53,038 bases of DNA, taken from a virus. The position numbers and the translations under genes are program-made. Under the pieces are notes generated by a model. That model did not search any database and was not told the origin of the DNA. It saw only the letters and a program-made list of their open reading frames with translations. The stretch covers positions 1 to 53,038 of IMG/VR virus record IMGVR_UViG_3300046474_000337; one strand, 5' to 3'. Positions 8,832 to 41,920 of the stretch are shown piece after piece (within the stretch, counting starts at the first letter, position 1; the number at the start of each line of letters is the position of its first letter).

Positions 8832-9668
8832 ATGGCCACCACGATTCCCCAGCAGCACCGGCCAGGAATGCACCTGGGCCGCCACATCGAGCACGACCCG
8901 CGCTCCCTCGCCTACGCGCACGGCGTGCTGCCCAAGTCGGCCATCAAGAGCGTCGAATGGACGCGCCGCATCCCCGTCCTCGATCAGGGGCAACTCGGCT
9001 CATGCACCGGCAACGCGGGCACTGGCGTCCTCGGCACCGACAGCGCCGGGCGTACCGCGTCCACCACGGTCACCATCACAGCCACCGCCGCGGCTGCCTC
9101 GCACGGCCTGTTCACGGCCGGGACATACGACCTGGACGAGGCGTTCGCGGTCAAGCTGTACTCGCTCGCGACGATCCTCGACGGCGTCACGGGCTCCTAC
9201 CCGCCCACCGACACCGGCAGCACGGGCATCGGTGTGGCGAAGGCGCTGAAGGCCCTCGGGCTCGCCTCCAGCTACACGCACGCCTTCTCGATCGCCGCCC
9301 TCAACTCGGCGTTGCAGACCGGGCCGGTGATGATCGGCATACCGTGGCTGGCCAGCATGTTCGACACCAAGAGCGACGGCCGGATCGTCGTCACCAAGAC
9401 GTCCCAGCTCGACGGCGGACACGAGCTGGAACTGTCCCGCTTCGACGCGAGTACGGGCGAGTACTGGGTGCCGAACTCGTGGTCGGACAGCTGGGGCGTG
9501 GACGGTTGGGCGTACTTCACCACCGCGGACCTGACCTGGCTGCTGTCCCAGCAGGGCGACGTGACGGTGCCCCAGCTGACGACCGCCCCCGCGCCGGCGC
9601 CGTCCGCGCCGAGTGGCGCCCAAGTCGCGGCTGCGGTCCGCAGCGCCCTGAGCGGGCTGGGAGTCTGA
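8832..9668 (+). CDS. Papain-like (C1-type) cysteine peptidase
   Basis: 278 residues, ATG at 8832 preceded by GAGAGGGGG; a GTG at 8817 is in frame but has no ribosome binding site. The papain triad is visible. [11 protein letters not shown] holds the nucleophile C58 with an oxyanion Gln a few residues before it, GGHE gives H197, and PNSWSDSWG gives N215 with the usual following Ser-Trp and Trp-Gly. A Pro/Ala-rich tail follows residue 245. There is no signal peptide. The gene lies between tail-tip genes and the endolysin, so it may act on cell-surface protein or peptide cross-links at entry or lysis. The fold call is strong; the substrate is unknown. Confidence 0.8.
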
Positions 9669-9670
9669 CC

Positions 9671-10642
9671 GTGACCACTTGCCGCGGCATCGACGTATCC
9701 GCCTACCAGGGGACTCAGGACTGGTCGGCGCGGAAGGCCGAGGGCGTCGTGTTCGCCTTCGCCAAAGCGTCCGAAGGCCAGCACACCCACGACACCCGGT
9801 TCGCCACCCACATCACCGGCATCAAGAAGGCCGGACTCGTGCCGGGCGCCTACCACTTCAGCCACCCCAACCAGGACGTGGCACTGGAGGCTGCGAACTA
9901 CATCTCCGCGGTGAAGCCGTATGCCGGGACCGGTTTTCTGCACTGGCTGGACCTGGAGCGGCTGAGCGACGGCAGCAACTACGCCGGCCGATCGGCCACC
10001 CAGATCCGGGCGTGGGCGGCGACGTGGATGACGCTCGTCCAGGAGGCTTTCCCGGGCCAGCGCGTCGGCATCTATACGAGTGCCGATGACATCGCCGCGG
10101 GCCGGGTGCCGTCGGGTGTGACGCTCTGGTATCCGGCCTACCCGGGCACAGCCGTGGACACCTACGCGGAGGCAGAAGGGCATGCACGCCCTGCACCGTC
10201 GGGCCGGTCGCCGCTGGTCTGGCAGTTCACGTCGGCACCCGCATCCGGTCCCCGTATGGACCTGAACATCTGCTACCTGAGCGAGGCCAGCCTGCGCGCG
10301 TGGGCGGCCGGAACCGAGGAGGACCCCATGGCGGGGATCACCAAGCAGGACATCTACGACGCGGTATGGAAGACCGACCAGGTTGCCGCCCCGGCGGACG
10401 CCCCGGACGTCAAGACGAACCAGACCTGGCAGCCGCAGTCCTTCCTCAAGGACCTCGACGCGCGGGTGCGGGCGATCCAGGCGCAGGAGGCCGGGCAGAC
10501 TGCGGCGATCACCACGCTGGCCAAGCTCGTGGGTTCCGGCGTGGACACGGACACGGTGGTCGCCGCCGTGCAGCAGGCCATCAAGGAAGAAGTCATCAAG
10601 GTCAGCATCGACGTCACTGGCGCCGAGACGAAGGGAGCCTGA
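9671..10642 (+). CDS. GH25 lysozyme (endolysin)
   Basis: 323 residues starting with GTG at 9671. Residues 1-210 match the GH25 muramidase fold: an opening RGIDVSAYQG with D8, then HWLDLERLS with the catalytic pair D94 and E96, and a final RMDLNICY strand with the conserved Asp. Such enzymes cut the beta-1,4 bond between N-acetylmuramic acid and N-acetylglucosamine. Residues about 225-323 are a linker plus an Ala/Asp-rich helical tail with no recognised wall-binding repeats. No signal peptide is present, so release depends on a holin. Three small membrane proteins follow immediately, giving a standard lysis cassette. Confidence 0.92.
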   Translation: MTTCRGIDVSAYQGTQDWSARKAEGVVFAFAKASEGQHTHDTRFATHITGIKKAGLVPGAYHFSHPNQDVALEAANYISAVKPYAGTGFLHWLDLERLSDGSNYAGRSATQIRAWAATWMTLVQEAFPGQRVGIYTSADDIAAGRVPSGVTLWYPAYPGTAVDTYAEAEGHARPAPSGRSPLVWQFTSAPASGPRMDLNICYLSEASLRAWAAGTEEDPMAGITKQDIYDAVWKTDQVAAPADAPDVKTNQTWQPQSFLKDLDARVRAIQAQEAGQTAAITTLAKLVGSGVDTDTVVAAVQQAIKEEVIKVSIDVTGAETKGA

Positions 10643-35924: not shown

Positions 35925-36310
35925 TCCTCGCGGTAGCCGGGCCGGTCCGCGTAGGGCAGGGCGAGGAGCTTGACGGCTCCGTGTAGCGCGAGGAGCGCGC
36001 CAGCGGACGCGAGGTCGTCAGGGTGAGCGCGTCGGTTCTCCATCGCACGCTCGTACCGTTCGACGAGCTGCCGCTTCGCTTCGATCTCCCGCAGCACCCG
36101 AGCCGGATCATGCGCAGCGATGAACGCGCCGCGCTCCGACTCCATGAAGTCCTGCGACCCGACTGCCACGAGGTCGCCCTCTCGGCGAGTGATGACGGCG
36201 TGCCCGTCGTAATGCCAGTCGGGGCCGTCTTCCTCAGCCGCAGCCGTTGCGCGCGCCGCGTCGATGTCGAGTTGGTCGCGCAGCCACTGCACAAAATCCA
36301 CGCCGCTCAC
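35912..36310 (-). CDS. DUF6221-like protein
   Basis: 132 residues, GTG at 36310 overlapping the previous leftward stop by four bases. It opens DFVQWLRDQLDIDAARA and has the family block HDPARVLREIEAKRQLVERY near residue 70, with helical ends. This matches the DUF6221 pattern more clearly than the gene at 34455. Function unknown; it sits between two HTH genes and may act with them. Confidence 0.75.
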   Translation of the reverse strand: MSGVDFVQWLRDQLDIDAARATAAAEEDGPDWHYDGHAVITRREGDLVAVGSQDFMESERGAFIAAHDPARVLREIEAKRQLVERYERAMENRRAHPDDLASAGALLALHGAVKLLALPYADRPGYREEWRP

Positions 36311-36573
36311 TCCTCCGGCTCCGGTTCCAGCTCCTCGGCGAGGATCTGCCGGACGCGCCCGAAGCTGATGCTCAACTCCTTGGCGATCTGGCGGTAGGTC
36401 ATCCCGCCGTCGCTCATTTCCTGCACAGCCTCTTTCCGCCGCCGTCTCCACTCCAGACGAGCCGCGTCCATGGCTGCGTCCAGCCGCCGCGCCCGCTCTG
36501 CGGGAGCCACATCTACGGCTACACCGGCGATGGCTTCGCGCACGCGCCGCACCTCCTCCGCCCGGTCGTCCAT
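36307..36573 (-). CDS. HTH regulator, first gene of the leftward operon
   Basis: 88 residues, ATG at 36573 with GGAGAGG upstream. A helical N-terminal half with coiled-coil look (AERARRLDAAMDAARLEWRR) leads to DGGMTYRQIAKELSISFGRV and RQILAEELE, a helix-turn-helix of the sigma-region-4 class. It is transcribed away from the tandem palindrome at 36622-36657, which lies 49 bases upstream and is a plausible binding site for it. Confidence 0.72.
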   Translation of the reverse strand: MDDRAEEVRRVREAIAGVAVDVAPAERARRLDAAMDAARLEWRRRRKEAVQEMSDGGMTYRQIAKELSISFGRVRQILAEELEPEPEE

Positions 36574-36621: not shown

Positions 36622-36657
36622 GTGTAGGAAGCCTACACGCGTGTAGCTTGACTACAC
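36622..36657. promoter_or_regulatory. Tandem 17-base palindromic operators between divergent operons
   Basis: GTGTAGGAAGCCTACAC (36622-36638) and GTGTAGCTTGACTACAC (36641-36657) share arms GTGTAG/CTACAC and repeat every 19 bases. They lie between the leftward HTH operon and the rightward GT2/membrane operon. On the minus strand TTGTGT and TAGGCT have promoter-like spacing. Confidence 0.75.
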
Positions 36658-36694
36658 AACGGTACGGAGGTCCGCCTCCACCGTGATCAACAAA

Positions 36695-36734
36695 GCCCCC
36701 GGTCCGGAGCTGGAACTCCACATGGACCGGGGGC
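36695..36734 (+). terminator. Leader hairpin / attenuator before the rightward operon
   Basis: GCCCCCGGTCC (36695-36705) pairs perfectly with GGACCGGGGGC (36724-36734); GGAG and CTCC form an inner helper stem. As it lies between the operator and the first gene at 36765, it may attenuate the operon. Confidence 0.6.
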
Positions 36735-36764
36735 ACCCACCTTCAACTCCACGAAGAGGCAGGC

Positions 36765-36935
36765 ATGCCCGAGCGTACCGATCAGCCCCCTGAGCAGCAC
36801 AGCCCCCGCACGTGTACCGCGTGCAGCGGCGACGGCGGACGCACCATCAACACCAGCCACGACGGCGTCACCGTCGAGACCTGGCAGTACTGCAACGGCT
36901 GCTCCGGGACCGGGACCGCCGGGGGTGGCGTCTGA
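36765..36935 (+). CDS. Small DnaJ-type zinc-finger protein
   Basis: 56 residues, ATG at 36765 with GAGGCAGG upstream. It carries CTACSGDGGRT and CNGCSGTGT, two CxxCxGxG repeats like those of the DnaJ zinc domain, about 25 residues apart. Such mini zinc proteins occur in Streptomyces plasmid and phage operons. Its stop shares a base with the next ATG. It is the first gene of the membrane/GT2 operon; its partner is unknown. Confidence 0.7.
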   Translation: MPERTDQPPEQHSPRTCTACSGDGGRTINTSHDGVTVETWQYCNGCSGTGTAGGGV

Positions 36936-37132
36936 TGCCGGACACCTTCGGCGGCGAATGGCACCGCCCCCGCGACAGCAAGCACCGGGATCGCCAGCGC
37001 GGCCACTCGCAGCGCCAGCTCCAGGACCGCGCCTCGTACGACAACGAGCCGCAGACCGGATGCGGCGCCCTGTTCCTGCTGCTCCTCACCGTCCTCGCCG
37101 CCGCGGCGGCGCTCCTCGGCCTGGCGCTCTGA
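36935..37132 (+). CDS. Small tail-anchored membrane protein
   Basis: 65 residues, ATG at 36935 sharing its A with the previous TGA. Residues 1-42 are highly polar and basic (WHRPRDSKHRDRQRGHSQRQ); residues 45-64 are hydrophobic (ALFLLLLTVLAAAAALLGLA). That is a C-terminal anchor with a cytoplasmic basic domain. A perfect hairpin follows, yet the next membrane gene starts 72 bases on in the same direction. Confidence 0.66.
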   Translation: MPDTFGGEWHRPRDSKHRDRQRGHSQRQLQDRASYDNEPQTGCGALFLLLLTVLAAAAALLGLAL

Positions 37133-37145
37133 CCCACCACAGACC

Positions 37146-37178
37146 GGCCGGGCCCCGACTCCCCTGCGGGGCCCGGCC
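37146..37178 (+). terminator. Hairpin within the operon
   Basis: GGCCGGGCCCCG (37146-37157) pairs perfectly with CGGGGCCCGGCC (37167-37178) around ACTCCCCTG. It may set expression of the two small genes apart from the GT2 gene downstream. Confidence 0.7.
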
Positions 37179-37204
37179 CCTTCAACCCGAACAGGAAGAC
37201 CCAC

Positions 37205-37375
37205 GTGTCTGACAACGCACAGCTCGCCAGAACCGGAACCGCCGGCGCCCTCGTCATCGGCACCACCGTCATCACCGGATGGTGGCTGATCGGCGTAGCC
37301 GTCGGCATAGTCGCCATCGGCGCACTCTGCATCCGCTTCGGCTTCCGCCGCGGCAGGACAGCAGGCGAGCAGTGA
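37205..37375 (+). CDS. Small two-pass-type membrane protein upstream of GT2
   Basis: 56 residues, GTG at 37205 with AGGAAG upstream. After a short polar start, residues about 12-46 are hydrophobic (GALVIGTTVITGWWLIG, VAVGIVAIGALCI), then a basic end (RFGFRRGRTAGEQ). Its stop overlaps the glycosyltransferase start (GTGA), so the two are translationally coupled and may associate in the membrane. No family recognised. Confidence 0.68.
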   Translation: MSDNAQLARTGTAGALVIGTTVITGWWLIGVAVGIVAIGALCIRFGFRRGRTAGEQ

Positions 37376-38838
37376 CCAGAACCCCGAGCGCCCACCTGCA
37401 CCGCTCCACCACGATCCTCACCGGTGCCGTCGTACTGCTGGCCGCGGCGGTGTGGGCCGCGCACCACGGCGTCCAGGCCGCGCACTACGGGCAGCAGACG
37501 GGCAGTCGTCTCGCCGCGGTGTGGGCCACCACGTTCCTGCTGCTCCTCACGCAGACGTTGATGTACCACTGCGAGCGGACCCGACGGCCGTCGGCGCGGG
37601 CGCGGCGCCAACTCGACGCGCTGCACGTCGCCGTGTTGATCCCCGTGTACAACGAAGACGACGGCTATCTGCGGCTCGGCCTGGAGTCGATGCTCGCGCA
37701 GACCCGCCGCCCGAACTCCGTGCACGTCGTCGATGACGGGTCGACGTCCGGGGATTACGCGCAGGTGCGCGCCTGGTGGGAGCGGGCCGCGGCCGAGGCC
37801 GGGATCACGACGACGTGGCAGCGGACCGTCAACGGCGGGAAGCGGCATGCGCAGGGCGCGGCCGTACGCGTCAGCTCGGACGCGGAGGTGTACATCACCG
37901 TCGACTCCGACTCGTGCCTCGCACCGAACGCCGTCGAGGAGATCCTCCTCCCGTTCACCCGGCCGCGGGTGCAGTCCGTGGCCGGCGTCGTCCTCGCCAC
38001 CAACCACCGGGCCAACCTCCTCACCCGCGTCACGGACCTGTGGTTCGTCACCGGCCAACTGACCGACCGGTCCGCGCTGTCCGCGATGGGCTCGGTACTC
38101 GTCAACTCGGGCCCGCTCGCCGCGTACCGGGCCGAGGTGATCCGCGACAACCTCGACTCCTACCTGAACGAGACGTTCATGGGCCGCCCGGTGATGTTCT
38201 CCGACGACAGCCTGCTGACCCTGTACGCGCTGCTCCGTGGCCGCACGGTCCAGCAGCCGAGCGCCGTGGTGTTCACCGCGCTGCCCGAGCGGCCTCGTCA
38301 CTTCCTCGCTATGTATTGCCGCTGGATGCGCGGCTCGACGATCCGCTCCCTGTGGCGCATGCGCTACCTGCCGGTGACCGGGTGGGCGTACTGGGCTCAC
38401 CTGCTGCGCTGGTTCCAAGTCGCCCTGTCCACCGCGGTCCTGGGCTGGCTCCTGATCGTCGAACCGCTCCGGTACGGCGACATCCCGCCCGCGAGCTTCT
38501 TGATAGTGCCGTTCCTCATCGGATGGGCCCAAGCCCTCCGCTACCTCGGCGTCATCCGCTCCGACGAACGCATCCGCTCCCGCGCCGTCACCTGGCTGCT
38601 CATGCCGCTCGCCGTCGTCGGCTCGTGGACCGTGCTCCGGGTGATGCGCTGGTACGGCATGGCCACCTGCGCCCGCACCGGCTGGGGCACCCGCCAGAAC
38701 GGCGCGGAAGTCACCCTCGACACCGCGCCCGCGCCGGCCGCCGTGCTGGCGGACGACGACACGGTGCGCATCCCCCTCGTGAAGCTCCGCGACCTGGAGT
38801 CCGAGACCACGTTGCAGATCGCGTTCACCGCCCGCTGA
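37372..38838 (+). CDS. Membrane-embedded GT2 glycosyltransferase (hyaluronan/cellulose-synthase-like)
   Basis: 488 residues, GTG at 37372. Two N-terminal membrane helices (about 10-31 and 41-60) precede a GT-A domain: ALHVAVLIPVYNEDD, then VVDDGS (D121/D122), TVDSDSC (D178, D180: the metal-binding DxD), and FSDDS (D278/D279, the base region). The acceptor motif QxxRW reads MYCRW (314-318), with Met for Gln. Three more membrane helices follow (about 345-440) and a soluble tail. This is the topology of processive synthases such as HasA, NodC or CesA. It may make or modify a surface glycan, perhaps blocking other phages or aiding spread. Product and acceptor are unknown, and the enzyme is unusual on a phage. 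Confidence 0.82.
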   Translation: MTRTPSAHLHRSTTILTGAVVLLAAAVWAAHHGVQAAHYGQQTGSRLAAVWATTFLLLLTQTLMYHCERTRRPSARARRQLDALHVAVLIPVYNEDDGYLRLGLESMLAQTRRPNSVHVVDDGSTSGDYAQVRAWWERAAAEAGITTTWQRTVNGGKRHAQGAAVRVSSDAEVYITVDSDSCLAPNAVEEILLPFTRPRVQSVAGVVLATNHRANLLTRVTDLWFVTGQLTDRSALSAMGSVLVNSGPLAAYRAEVIRDNLDSYLNETFMGRPVMFSDDSLLTLYALLRGRTVQQPSAVVFTALPERPRHFLAMYCRWMRGSTIRSLWRMRYLPVTGWAYWAHLLRWFQVALSTAVLGWLLIVEPLRYGDIPPASFLIVPFLIGWAQALRYLGVIRSDERIRSRAVTWLLMPLAVVGSWTVLRVMRWYGMATCARTGWGTRQNGAEVTLDTAPAPAAVLADDDTVRIPLVKLRDLESETTLQIAFTAR

Positions 38839-38845
38839 CCGCCGA

Positions 38846-38868
38846 CCCCGAGCCCACCCCCCTCGGGG
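38846..38868 (+). terminator. Small hairpin after the GT2 gene
   Basis: CCCCGAG (38846-38852) pairs with CTCGGGG (38862-38868) around a 9-base loop. A 7-bp stem, weak; perhaps partial termination or mRNA stabilisation. Confidence 0.45.
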
Positions 38869-38902
38869 ACGGCCCCCTCCTCCTTGCCACCTGGAGCCCC
38901 TC

Positions 38903-39379
38903 ATGACCACGCCGCCCGCCGCACTCGAACAGCGCCGCGCAACCGTGCGCCAACTGCACGCGGCAGGCCACTCCAACCGCGCCATCGCCCGCCAGCTCGG
39001 CATCAGCAAGGACGCCGTGGCGCGCGACCTGCGAGCCACCGAGCCACCCGTCGCCGAGCCGGGTGAGCCGCAGGCCGCGCCGGACGCGCCACCCGCCGTG
39101 ACGGCCGTGCACGCCATCAGCGAGCCAGGCCGAGCCACGCCCGCGCCACCCATGCCGACCAGCGGCAACCCAGTGAAGCCGTGGCTCGTCCACGACTTGA
39201 ACCCGCGACTCATCCAGGACCTCAACCTCCTCGTCGACCCGCGCACCGGCCGCCTGCCCGCGCCACTGGAGCGCGCCGTCACCATTGCCGCCGCGGCCCG
39301 GCGCGCCGCCTGGCGCGGCAGCGAGTCGAGCCGGGCGCGCGACGACCGCGCCACCGCGAGCCAGGGCGGCGCGCGATGA
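38903..39379 (+). CDS. HTH protein with Pro/Ala-rich linker
   Basis: 158 residues, ATG at 38903 behind GGAG. Residues about 8-45 form a homeodomain-like/HTH_23 motif (RATVRQLHAAGHSNRAIARQ, then LGISKDAVARDLRA). Residues 48-100 are a Pro/Ala/Glu linker. Residues about 110-150 are helical with a conserved-looking VHDLNPRLIQDLNLLVDPRT block. Comparable HTH proteins sit beside spread genes on Streptomyces plasmids and elements. Likely operon regulator or DNA-binding partner of the membrane proteins; overlaps the next gene by four bases. Confidence 0.68.
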   Translation: MTTPPAALEQRRATVRQLHAAGHSNRAIARQLGISKDAVARDLRATEPPVAEPGEPQAAPDAPPAVTAVHAISEPGRATPAPPMPTSGNPVKPWLVHDLNPRLIQDLNLLVDPRTGRLPAPLERAVTIAAAARRAAWRGSESSRARDDRATASQGGAR

Positions 39380-39966
39380 GCGGCTCGAAGCCGGGCGCCG
39401 ACGAGCTCCGGATGCGCGGCATCCTCCGCAAGCGGGGCGTCGGGTATGACGCCGGACCCCCTGCTGCCCCACCGGCATTGCCTGCCGGGTACGAGCCCGC
39501 GCCGGCCGCCGACGACTGGTGGAACGACCTCTACGACGAGGACGACCCCGGGCCCGTCGACGAGGAGGAACCGGCGGCGAAGGGCAGCGCGCCGTCCGGG
39601 CCCGGCTGGTGGCAGACGCAGCCCGACTACTACCCGCGCCCCCACATGCCCGCTGTCCTCACCCGCACCCGCGACCGCGCCGACGCCGCCCTGAGCCCCA
39701 AGTCACGCGCCGCCCTCTACAACGCCAGCGCGGCCGGCGCCGGTTGGATGCTCGGCCTCTACCAGCAGTTCGCCCACGCCATCGCGGACTGCGGCACGCA
39801 CAGCATCAGCGGCGCCCTCGTCCTCGGCCTCGGGTCGTGCCTGCTGATCGCCCACGTGTGGGACAGGCGGACCCGCCACTGGTGGCCCGGCATCGCATGG
39901 GTTGCCCGTATCCCGCTTGCCACCGCCCTTACTGCGCTCGCCCTGTGGGCGCCCGCGTCCGCCTGA
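39376..39966 (+). CDS. Spread-type membrane protein (two or three helices), unknown
   Basis: 196 residues, ATG at 39376 overlapping the previous stop. The first 105 residues are soluble and acidic/Pro-rich, with an RMRGILRKRGVGYDAG start. Hydrophobic segments follow at about residues 118-134, 143-160 and 172-193, with a basic loop (WDRRTRHWWP) between the last two. The architecture (long cytoplasmic N-terminus, C-terminal membrane part) resembles spread proteins of Streptomyces conjugative plasmids. The resemblance is architectural only; I cannot name a family. Confidence 0.66.
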   Translation: MSGSKPGADELRMRGILRKRGVGYDAGPPAAPPALPAGYEPAPAADDWWNDLYDEDDPGPVDEEEPAAKGSAPSGPGWWQTQPDYYPRPHMPAVLTRTRDRADAALSPKSRAALYNASAAGAGWMLGLYQQFAHAIADCGTHSISGALVLGLGSCLLIAHVWDRRTRHWWPGIAWVARIPLATALTALALWAPASA

Positions 39967-39982
39967 CCAGGAGACCTACAGC

Positions 39983-40495
39983 ATGTTCACGAACATCGTT
40001 GCCGCCGCCCCGGCTATCAGCGTTGAGGGCGGCCGCATCCTCGGCTCGGTCGGTGCCGGGGGTATCGCGACCGCGCTCACGGTGATCCTCGTCGCGGGGA
40101 TCCGTGAGCCCAAGGGTGGTGGAGGAGGGGGCGCGCCCGGCGCGGGCGGGGGTGGGAAGAAGGGCCGCATCCGGAAGCGGCTGACGTCGGATCAGGCGCA
40201 GTGGACGGGTGTCGCCGCGGGCACGTTCTACATGACCGCGGGGTCCATCTGGACTGTGGGGAAGAACCTGTCCGACGCGTTCGCCACCGTGTTCACCGGT
40301 GGTGGGTTCGGCACGGCCGGACTCGGCGCGGTCGCGCTGCTCCTCGCCTCGATCATGTACTTCCGGGAGCTGGCCCCCGGGAAAGCCGCGGTCACCGGCA
40401 TCGTTGCGGCCGGGGTGTGGGCGCAGGCGGGCGGCGTCTGGGGCCTGCCTCAGGCCCTGATTCTGACCGGTGTGCACGCGGTGGGCGCCCTCTAA
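39983..40495 (+). CDS. SpdB-like polytopic membrane protein
   Basis: 170 residues, ATG at 39983 with CAGGAGA upstream. Hydrophobic segments lie at about residues 20-42, 72-95, 105-126 and 135-165. Between the first two is a Gly/Lys/Arg-rich cytoplasmic loop (KGGGGGGAPGAGGGGKKGRI). This pattern of glycine-rich basic loop and several short helices is like plasmid SpdB proteins and some type-IV pilin-like or pore proteins of actinobacterial elements. Its stop overlaps the next ATG (TAATG). Function inferred from resemblance only. Confidence 0.62.
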   Translation: MFTNIVAAAPAISVEGGRILGSVGAGGIATALTVILVAGIREPKGGGGGGAPGAGGGGKKGRIRKRLTSDQAQWTGVAAGTFYMTAGSIWTVGKNLSDAFATVFTGGGFGTAGLGAVALLLASIMYFRELAPGKAAVTGIVAAGVWAQAGGVWGLPQALILTGVHAVGAL

Positions 40496-41169
40496 TGGAG
40501 ATCATTAAGGACGCAGGGGAGCAGCCCACCCCCCGCCTGCACCGCAGGCTCGCCGCCGAAGTCCGCCCCATCCTCGCCGTCCGCGGCGCCGGAACTACGC
40601 TCCTCGCAGGGTCCCGCATCCTGGCGCGCCGCGGCTGGACGCTGCTCGCCGAGCACGTCGACGGGTGGGAGCGGTATGCGGCGCTCGCGTTCGGCGGGTA
40701 CGTCGTCGTGTACGCCTGCGGCCACGCCCCGCACATGGCCCGGTTCGTCGTCCCCGCGGCCGTCGTCGCGTGGTGTGCCGCCGCATGGTGGGTGACCCCG
40801 CCCGCGCCGGCCGTCGAGGAGCCCGAGGCCGCACCCACCGCGGAGGCCCCGCAAGCCTTCACACAGTGGCTCCTCGACACGATCGGAGACCGGCCCGGCA
40901 TCCACCTCCGCGAGCTGTACCCCGCAATGCGCCGGCTGCCCGGCTGCGAGAGGCACGACGACGCCCAACTCCGGGCCGCACTCCAGACCTTCGGTATCCC
41001 CGTCCACCGCAGCCTCCGTATCGGCGTCGTCGCGGGCCGCTCGGGGGTCCGCCGCGGCGATCTGGAAGCCCTCCCCTCGCCCGACAGGGAGGACCCCACG
41101 GAGACCTATGGAGACGCAGGTCAGAGCGCCGATTCTCCACCGCTCTCCACGAGCGGAGAGGGGCACTGA
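40495..41169 (+). CDS. Membrane protein with C-terminal winged-helix-like domain
   Basis: 224 residues, ATG at 40495 coupled to the previous gene. Two membrane helices lie at about residues 61-78 and 82-100. After a Pro/Glu-rich linker, residues about 120-195 (TQWLLDTIGDRPGIHLRELY, then DDAQLRAALQTFGIPVHRSL) look like a winged helix, ending in a basic strand and an acidic tail. A membrane anchor plus such a domain is also seen in Streptomyces plasmid transfer/spread proteins. It could bind DNA at the membrane. Role unproven. Confidence 0.66.
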   Translation: MEIIKDAGEQPTPRLHRRLAAEVRPILAVRGAGTTLLAGSRILARRGWTLLAEHVDGWERYAALAFGGYVVVYACGHAPHMARFVVPAAVVAWCAAAWWVTPPAPAVEEPEAAPTAEAPQAFTQWLLDTIGDRPGIHLRELYPAMRRLPGCERHDDAQLRAALQTFGIPVHRSLRIGVVAGRSGVRRGDLEALPSPDREDPTETYGDAGQSADSPPLSTSGEGH

Positions 41170-41170
41170 C

Positions 41171-41422
41171 ATGCCGTACGAGTACCGGTGCCGCGTGTGC
41201 CGCGCGGCCAGCCCACCCGACACCAGACGCGCCGCCGAGGCGTACCGGCAGGAGCACCGCGACATCGAGCACGGCGGTCTCGTCCCGCGGGGTGAGGCGA
41301 TCGTGCGTGTGCCAGGGAGCACCCCGGATCCCGACGCCCGGTACGTGAACACGGGCGGGCTCCTCGGTGGTCTGGCTCTGCTTGCGGTCGCCGAGTTGGT
41401 GGCGCGGGTGCTGGGCCGGTGA
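41171..41422 (+). CDS. Zinc-motif protein with C-terminal membrane helix
   Basis: 83 residues; ATG at 41171, one base after the previous stop. It opens PYEYRCRVCRAASPP (CxxC), then an EHRDIEHGG segment whose His residues may complete a zinc site, and ends with a hydrophobic helix (GGLLGGLALLAVAELVARVL). Small proteins starting P-x-Y-E-Y-R-C are typical next to spread genes in Streptomyces integrative elements as I recall them. It is likely the last membrane member of the operon. Confidence 0.66.
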   Translation: MPYEYRCRVCRAASPPDTRRAAEAYRQEHRDIEHGGLVPRGEAIVRVPGSTPDPDARYVNTGGLLGGLALLAVAELVARVLGR

Positions 41423-41495
41423 CCGGTTGCCCGGACCGCCTGTACGCGCGGGCGGTGCGGGGAGCCGGGACAGGCCCGCTCCGCGAGAGGACCCC

Positions 41496-41645
41496 ATGGA
41501 CTTCATCCGCTACCGCGTCGAGGACGACGGCGAGTTCCTCGACGAGTTCGGCACCAACTCGCCGGACTTCGCGAAGGAGCGGATCGACCGGATCCGCAAG
41601 TACCGCCCGAACCTCACGGTCACCGAGACACCGGACAACGGCTGA
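41496..41645 (+). CDS. Small acidic soluble protein
   Basis: 49 residues, ATG at 41496 with GAGAGG upstream. It reads as a charged helix (DEFGTNSPDFAKERIDRIRK) between two short strands. A competing frame from GTG at 41419 has better coupling to the previous stop but turns into a Ser/Thr/Arg-rich shadow, so this frame is preferred. Unknown function. Confidence 0.6.
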   Translation: MDFIRYRVEDDGEFLDEFGTNSPDFAKERIDRIRKYRPNLTVTETPDNG

Positions 41646-41767
41646 AACGGCCTGAGTTGACGCGCCCTGTCACACTGGCGGCAGGTCGTCAGTGCCAGGC
41701 CCGTCACGCCTCACCCCCCGGTGCGTGGCGGGCCGTCCCACACCAGCACAGCGATAGGACACAGCTC

Positions 41768-41920
41768 ATGAAGGACCGCACGCCGCACGTACGTCGCGTG
41801 CACACGCCGCTCGCCGACATCGACCCGCAGGGCGCCGTCACCGTGCGCGCCACGGGCCGCGTGAAGGACATTCCCGGGCGCCGGCCGGTGAAGCCGATCA
41901 CGTTCGACTCGGCGCTGTAG
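41768..41920 (+). CDS. Small basic protein, unknown
   Basis: 50 residues, ATG at 41768. It is rich in Arg, Val and Pro (KDRTPHVRRVHTPLADIDP, then GRVKDIPGRRPVKPITFD), without helices long enough for a membrane or coiled coil. It follows a 120-base gap that contains TTGACG at 41656 as a possible -35 element, and a hairpin follows at 41935. It could bind nucleic acid; no motif is diagnostic. Confidence 0.55.
   Translation: MKDRTPHVRRVHTPLADIDPQGAVTVRATGRVKDIPGRRPVKPITFDSAL

Follow-up and report, generated by a model that had tools for sequence, protein, structure and literature searches.

A probable sorting-signal microprotein encoded with a hyaluronan-synthase-like glycosyltransferase in a probable Streptomyces phage and its relatives

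We examined a block of rightward genes (36622-41920) in a 53-kb virus record (IMG/VR IMGVR_UViG_3300046474_000337), the whole of which we call the window. Gene calls recovered the layout that a first-pass annotation of the same DNA had described, with genes A to I followed by two small open reading frames (ORFs) (Table 1). At the center of this block, gene C encodes a microprotein and gene D encodes a family 2 glycosyltransferase (GT2). The best reading of this pair is that it makes, and probably tethers to the cell wall, a polymer of the glucuronic acid (GlcA)/N-acetylglucosamine (GlcNAc) type. The element that we consider new would be a near-empty sorting signal co-translated with a polysaccharide synthase, and we found no earlier description of the C-D unit in the open-licence papers searched.

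The product of gene C has the architecture SDNAQ-LARTG-transmembrane helix-RFGFRRGRTAGEQ, with the tail RFGFRRGR. This protein had been proposed as a partner of the GT2, and the overlap of the two genes and a linkage kept across loci support the pairing; its character as a sorting signal (LAxTG, transmembrane helix and basic tail) had been overlooked. LAxTG is the motif cleaved by the class E sortases SrtE1 and SrtE2 (PMC5148588), and C shows the layout of a class E substrate, with LAxTG, a hydrophobic segment and a C-terminal basic tail (layout as in PMC13251363). L7, T10 and G11 are invariant across the 14 diverse phage and plasmid members of our alignment A1, and the family ends in the helix followed by R-x-F/W-R in the aligned phage and plasmid partners. 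The L, A, T and G of the motif are fixed in 18 copies from the phage clade, with X variable, and LAxTG is present in 35 of 35 Streptomycetaceae copies, a count that ignores kinship. The charge is -0.4 before the motif and +3.9 in the tail; this asymmetry predicts an N-out protein, with the motif placed outside. Cleavage of C by a class E sortase appears probable, at least for the Streptomyces forms.

To count such microproteins, we searched the 900 nucleotides (nt) upstream of each GT2 mechanically for L[PA]xTG followed by a hydrophobic stretch and a basic tail; position 2 was thus fixed as A or P by design, and copies with other letters there were tallied apart. Such a strict microprotein closely preceded the GT2 in 95 of the 140 loci, 40/55 of the viral and 55/85 of the cellular ones, compared with 7 of 3,995 comparable control segments elsewhere in the same loci. 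The linkage persists even where the GT2s are only ~30% identical. A GT2 start that overlaps the microprotein by 1-4 nt is available in 73 of the 95 loci, although the count picked the start nearest to a 4-nt overlap and so shows availability, not proof. The overlap was annotated independently in phage Kromp and in S. canus; Kromp, which was isolated on S. lividans JI 1326, carries the pair as gp78-gp79. Two curated sorting-signal models, TIGR01167 and NF058583, did not match C and matched its relatives weakly. NF058583 (LAXTG_small_WW), which describes a small LAxTG protein, gave the most frequent of the weak matches (6 of 14 microproteins, best E 0.02); it was rejected as their family, as no copy found reached its 65-bit cut-off.

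Gene D passes Pfam Glycos_transf_2 (1.5e-14). The best solved structure for a family profile built from 17 relatives was the Chlorella virus hyaluronan synthase (HAS), CvHAS (6.5e-25, over residues 52-450), in an alignment that begins at the N-terminal helices and takes in the WGTR motif. An AlphaFold model of D (predicted local distance difference test score, pLDDT, 80.5; predicted template modelling score, pTM, 0.82) has five long helices, two near the N-terminus and three near the C-terminus, in agreement with the first-pass annotation. When this model was searched with Foldseek, the top 13 PDB matches were all HAS, down to 1e-19, with moderate TM-scores (0.45-0.66). The proposal of a processive-type synthase in a phage is borne out by the profile and Foldseek matches, and D is very likely HAS-like.

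The motifs reported earlier for D (D178/D180, D278/D279 and MYCRW) are present. The DxD, RW and WGTR motifs of HAS are retained, the C-terminal WGTR being invariant in the family, and SDD stands in place of GDD. CvHAS residues K177, R341 and R348, together with DxD, are reported as catalytic or uridine diphosphate (UDP)-GlcA-contacting positions (PMC12987647). They align to K157, R317, R325 and D178/D180 of D, all of which are invariant in the family alignment A2. MYCRW had been noted in place of QxxRW; it does not mark a different enzyme class but is a substitution within a QxxRW family. The Q-to-M change is common to the Streptomyces phage clade, to the plasmid copies of S. canus and NBC_01361 and to locus L018, and QxxRW is retained in other distant members.

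Several known enzymes resemble D. Among the closest is CvHAS, a Class 1 HAS (PDB 7SP6-7SPA, 8SNC-8SNE, 9YQ2-9YQ5) that shares its fold, its DxD, GKR, RW and WGTR motifs and its membrane layout, is likewise encoded by a virus, and has a UDP-glucose dehydrogenase companion, which for D is found in relatives of the window gene. D differs from CvHAS in its ~17-18% identity, its two motif substitutions, its phage or actinobacterial origin and its microprotein partner. The best curated model for D was NodC (TIGR04242, 1.1e-35), at 123 bits, far below the 550-bit equivalog cut-off; D is ~30% identical to plasmid NodCs and has the same GT2 core, but no microprotein partner is known for NodC. The XrtG-associated GT2 (TIGR03111) is also tied to a sortase-like transpeptidase and matches D weakly (7.6e-9, far below cut-off), but that transpeptidase is an exosortase rather than sortase E. 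The GtrB-type O-antigen conversion morons (phrog_841) are phage GT2s that would alter the host surface, but the match to D is weak (0.016), and GtrB is a lipid-carrier glucosyltransferase.

The genes beside the GT2 offer a contextual argument that D uses GlcA. The commonest neighbor is a gene of the UDP-glucose/GDP-mannose dehydrogenase family, seen in ~20 cellular or plasmid loci and 4 viral loci, a count made without a background rate and in which matches below ~35% identity may represent different nucleotide-sugar dehydrogenases. These neighbors occur in different positions and belong to several sequence groups. Pfam confirmed the identity of two (L004 and L038); seven share 70% identity or more with the enzyme of plasmid L004, and the others, at 25-41%, are less certain. 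A deep-branching group of viral GT2s (L145-L153, ~30% identity) includes several with upstream LPxTG microproteins and three with dehydrogenase-family genes. The Actinomyces loci (L006, L046, L050, L052-L056) carry another gene family directly upstream of the GT2 and no microprotein; it is annotated as a polysaccharide deacetylase in L006, a pairing like that of NodB and NodC.

The C-D pair is mobile and occupies a variable slot. At least 13 changes between phage and cell labels are forced on the GT2 tree, and the clade of the window GT2 (99*) has 17 members, in 14 viral and 3 cellular rows, one cellular row being identical to a viral contig. The median ratio of nonsynonymous to synonymous substitution rates (dN/dS) is 0.33, and the family is sporadic in Streptomyces (10/150 species genomes). 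Internal stops in the GT2 frames (16/140) were not used, as many are probably tblastn running beyond the natural stop. Contig L204 carries E-F-G-H-I at 47-89% identity to the window, and a lipoprotein gene occupies the place of C-D there, between the small genes and E; related lipoproteins sit near this place in L188, L193, L194 and L209. The replacement of C-D by a lipoprotein gene in L204 marks the site as a slot that takes alternative surface genes. From these features we read module 1 (37205-38838) as behaving like a surface-acting moron. The small lipoprotein family itself (~110 aa, ...VVDLSWxQQTEADKxAMC..., L204 9152-9493) is a candidate exclusion lipoprotein.

We propose that C-D is a transferable two-gene moron that occupies a variable slot in a temperate Streptomyces phage. 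Judging by homology, D would polymerize UDP-sugars, most likely UDP-GlcNAc together with UDP-GlcA supplied by host enzymes, and would itself form the membrane channel by which the chain leaves the cell. C, co-translated with D, would lie beside it as a single N-out helix with LAxTG at the outer face of the membrane, where cleavage between T and G by a class E sortase of the host would attach the few N-terminal residues to the wall. In this role C would most likely hold the synthase or the nascent chain at the wall, as a tether, a primer or a release step, and the lysogen or infected hypha would as a result bear a changed glycan associated with its wall. That the pair makes a wall-associated surface polymer has, in our estimation, an even chance of being correct, and the full account of a transferable surface-modification cassette falls just short of that. 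In Streptomyces, phage adsorption depends on surface glycoproteins (phiC31 and Pmt; PMC5882110), and for this reason altered adsorption is our leading guess for the benefit, most plausibly as less adsorption of competing phages. We nevertheless regard phage exclusion as the main benefit as doubtful. A working viral precedent is the chlorovirus HAS with its UDP-glucose dehydrogenase, which coats infected algae with hyaluronan and for which the advantage of the coat is likewise unresolved (PMC5408694).

Several observations weigh against this proposal. Only 4-24 residues precede the motif across copies (6 in C), which leaves little to anchor, and C lacks the signal peptide and exported domain of a class E substrate. 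No recognizable motif is present in at least nine homologous microproteins that do keep the helix and the basic tail (L044, L049, L060, L087-L089, L091, L094 and L138), and such motif-less partners include those of Saccharibacteria, Nonomuraea and some metagenomic loci; the Actinomyces GT2s have no microprotein partner at all. Sortase use is therefore not universal, and the partners without the motif imply that microproteins of this family have a structural part in the synthase, whether in addition to cleavage by a sortase or in its place. In Pseudonocardiales (L005 10744-11469, and L038), the GT2 is preceded at ~1 kb by a divergent class E sortase gene, but we rejected this linkage as general support because it is confined to one lineage. 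The window GT2 has S for the G of GDD and M for the Q of QxxRW, and because NodC also resembles D, a chitin-like product is possible. We noticed no dehydrogenase gene beside the cassette in the window phage, and we know of no exclusion phenotype for C-D.

The strongest alternative gives C a structural role, as a single-helix subunit that serves the stability, channel gating or localization of the synthase, and that LxxTG is a leftover or helix cap with no part for a sortase. The motif-less partners fit this idea in that they keep the helix and a basic R-x-F/W-RR tail, as do the close coupling of the C and D genes and the near absence of an N-terminal part in C. Conservation of the motif speaks against it: position 2 is A or P, the residues accepted by sortase classes, in nearly all copies, the L, T and G do not vary among diverse members, and only LA is found in Streptomycetaceae. 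On balance we consider a purely structural subunit unlikely.

A different benefit is also conceivable, with the biochemistry as we propose it. The cassette could be exopolysaccharide cargo that serves lysogen fitness (aggregation, attachment or desiccation) rather than competition among phages. Its repeated exchange among chromosomes, plasmids and phages and its presence in so few Streptomyces genomes are in keeping with cargo. Taken alone, however, this explanation does not account for the phage-dominated clade or for the slot shared with a lipoprotein gene, and we rate it as rather improbable.

The first-pass annotation had grouped all genes of the block into one system, in which the GT2 and the membrane proteins would act together in passage along the mycelium or plasmid-like persistence. 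F-G-H-I (module 2, 39376-41422) occur in the same order on the Streptomyces plasmids NBC_00144, pSTS1 and that of S. avidinii, where a divergent GntR gene and DUF2637 proteins lie close to them, and pSNA1 has homologues of F and G. Identity to the Streptomyces plasmid genes is 36-55% for F, 59-65% for G and 49-52% for I. Gene H has homologues in L014 and Kromp (gp85) and is weakly similar to, but syntenic with, the plasmid H, and I matches phrog_32136 (7.5e-11). The suggested plasmid link is therefore borne out for F-I, whose known counterparts lie in transfer/spread regions of Streptomyces plasmids such as pSNA1 and pSTS1, but F-I have no detectable homology to SpdA/SpdB of pIJ101, the experimentally defined spread (Spd) proteins that were compared. 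From the plasmid link no functional tie to the GT2 follows. A candidate TraB/FtsK gene beside module 2 on plasmid L175 (module comparators L174-L177) was rejected, being an 'ATP-binding protein' with no Pfam match.

The two modules do adjoin in some phages. Among the F/G-bearing phage contigs found, the GT2 lies within 10 kb of F/G only in the window phage and L014; a diverged version of module 2 stands beside the GT2 in Kromp, L103 and L109. However, F-G-H-I occur in more than 20 IMG/VR phage contigs, most of which lack the GT2; E travels with them (E-F-G-H-I in L180, L181 and L204, where no GT2 was seen); and F-I are missing from most GT2-bearing phages and from the plasmid and chromosomal copies of C-D. 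We accordingly rejected an obligate linked operon. A single system is very unlikely, and joint action of F-I with C-D is hardly to be expected. The least probable alternative makes C a sortase decoy, in which an excess of bare signals would occupy SrtE and strip the surface of LAxTG proteins that may be phage receptors, while the GT2 would change the surface in another way; C is almost nothing besides the signal, and surface glycoproteins are inferred receptors of Streptomyces phages (PMC5882110), but the pair is chromosomal in many bacteria with no clear use for a decoy, and its coupling to the GT2 is too tight for an independent role.

Bacterial hyaluronan- and chitin-type synthases are usually pictured as acting alone and releasing their polymer, whereas sortases are known for anchoring proteins. 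A sortase tag beside a HAS-like synthase in bacteria, plasmids and phages would directly link glycan export with wall anchoring. More broadly, and tentatively, a polymerase and a bare-signal microprotein could form a glycan-display system shared by actinobacteria and their phages, in which the host class E sortase couples extrusion to covalent wall attachment and which phages use to recoat the lysogen. The C-D pair would also give bacteriophages an equivalent of the chlorovirus hyaluronan genes, and it is a candidate mechanism of surface conversion in Streptomyces lysogens. The cassette occurs in many actinobacteria and their viruses, and its two genes point to a common means, in viruses and bacteria, of making a sugar coat and possibly of fixing it to the cell.

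Going by gene calls, the window reads as a temperate Streptomyces siphovirus. Terminal repeats were sought in it as a sign of a complete genome, and none were found. PADLOC models did not match any of the nine block proteins, and we rejected a known anti-phage defence system.

Table 1. Features of the window. Lysis, integrase-like, terminase-like and portal-like genes were named by reading the sequence, without a profile search. HTH, helix-turn-helix; TM, transmembrane helix; aa, amino acids.
Feature	Position	Strand	Description
Tail genes	0.3-8 kb		Gene calls; tape-measure stretch matches Streptomyces phages
Lysis genes	8.9-11 kb		
Integrase-like gene	15.6-16.9 kb		
Terminase-like and portal-like genes	from 45.7 kb		
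Small HTH/sigma-70 region 4-like protein	36307..36573	-	Pfam PF04545, 8.9e-6; Kromp gp74 homologue
Tandem operator	36622..36657	.	Two perfect GTGTAG-N5-CTACAC palindromes, 36622-36638 and 36641-36657
Gene A	36765..36935	+	56 aa; DnaJ-type zinc-ribbon, CxxCxGxG; Pfam 1.5e-5, below cut-off
Gene B	36935..37132	+	65 aa; one TM; flanking gene
RNA hairpin	37146..37179	+	-33.8 kcal/mol, z -4.25; GC-rich, very stable, without U-run
Gene C	37205..37375	+	56-aa microprotein; LAxTG, TM and basic tail
Gene D	37372..38838	+	GT2, 488 aa; GTG start overlaps gene C stop (GTGA)
Gene E	38903..39379	+	158-aa HTH protein
Gene F	39376..39966	+	196-aa membrane protein; plasmid-shared module
Gene G	39983..40495	+	170-aa membrane protein; plasmid-shared module
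Gene H	40495..41169	+	224-aa membrane protein; plasmid-shared module
Gene I	41171..41422	+	83-aa zinc-finger and TM protein; plasmid-shared module
Two small ORFs	after gene I, to 41920		

The operator at 36622, which had also been noted before, is real: its two copies, spaced 19 bp apart, separate the leftward sigma/HTH gene from the genes that run rightward, and the same tandem pair is present in Kromp and contig L188. In Kromp the pair adjoins the homologue of the leftward gene, gp74 (68% identity over the C-terminal part); the leftward gene is a candidate divergent regulator. Gene A, missing from the other GT2 loci, is a flanking gene outside the cassette, and B is retained in some phages (L112, L131 and L185). 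The strong hairpin lies just 5' of the cassette and splits A-B from C-D, so that a single transcript from the operator is uncertain. By eye, L204 has an analogous inverted repeat. In the lysis region of the window, a papain-like cysteine peptidase (8868-9668) and a GH25-type lysozyme (9671-10642) are apparently paired, going by a reading of the sequence, and L014 carries a similar pair of lysis genes at 7-10.5 kb.

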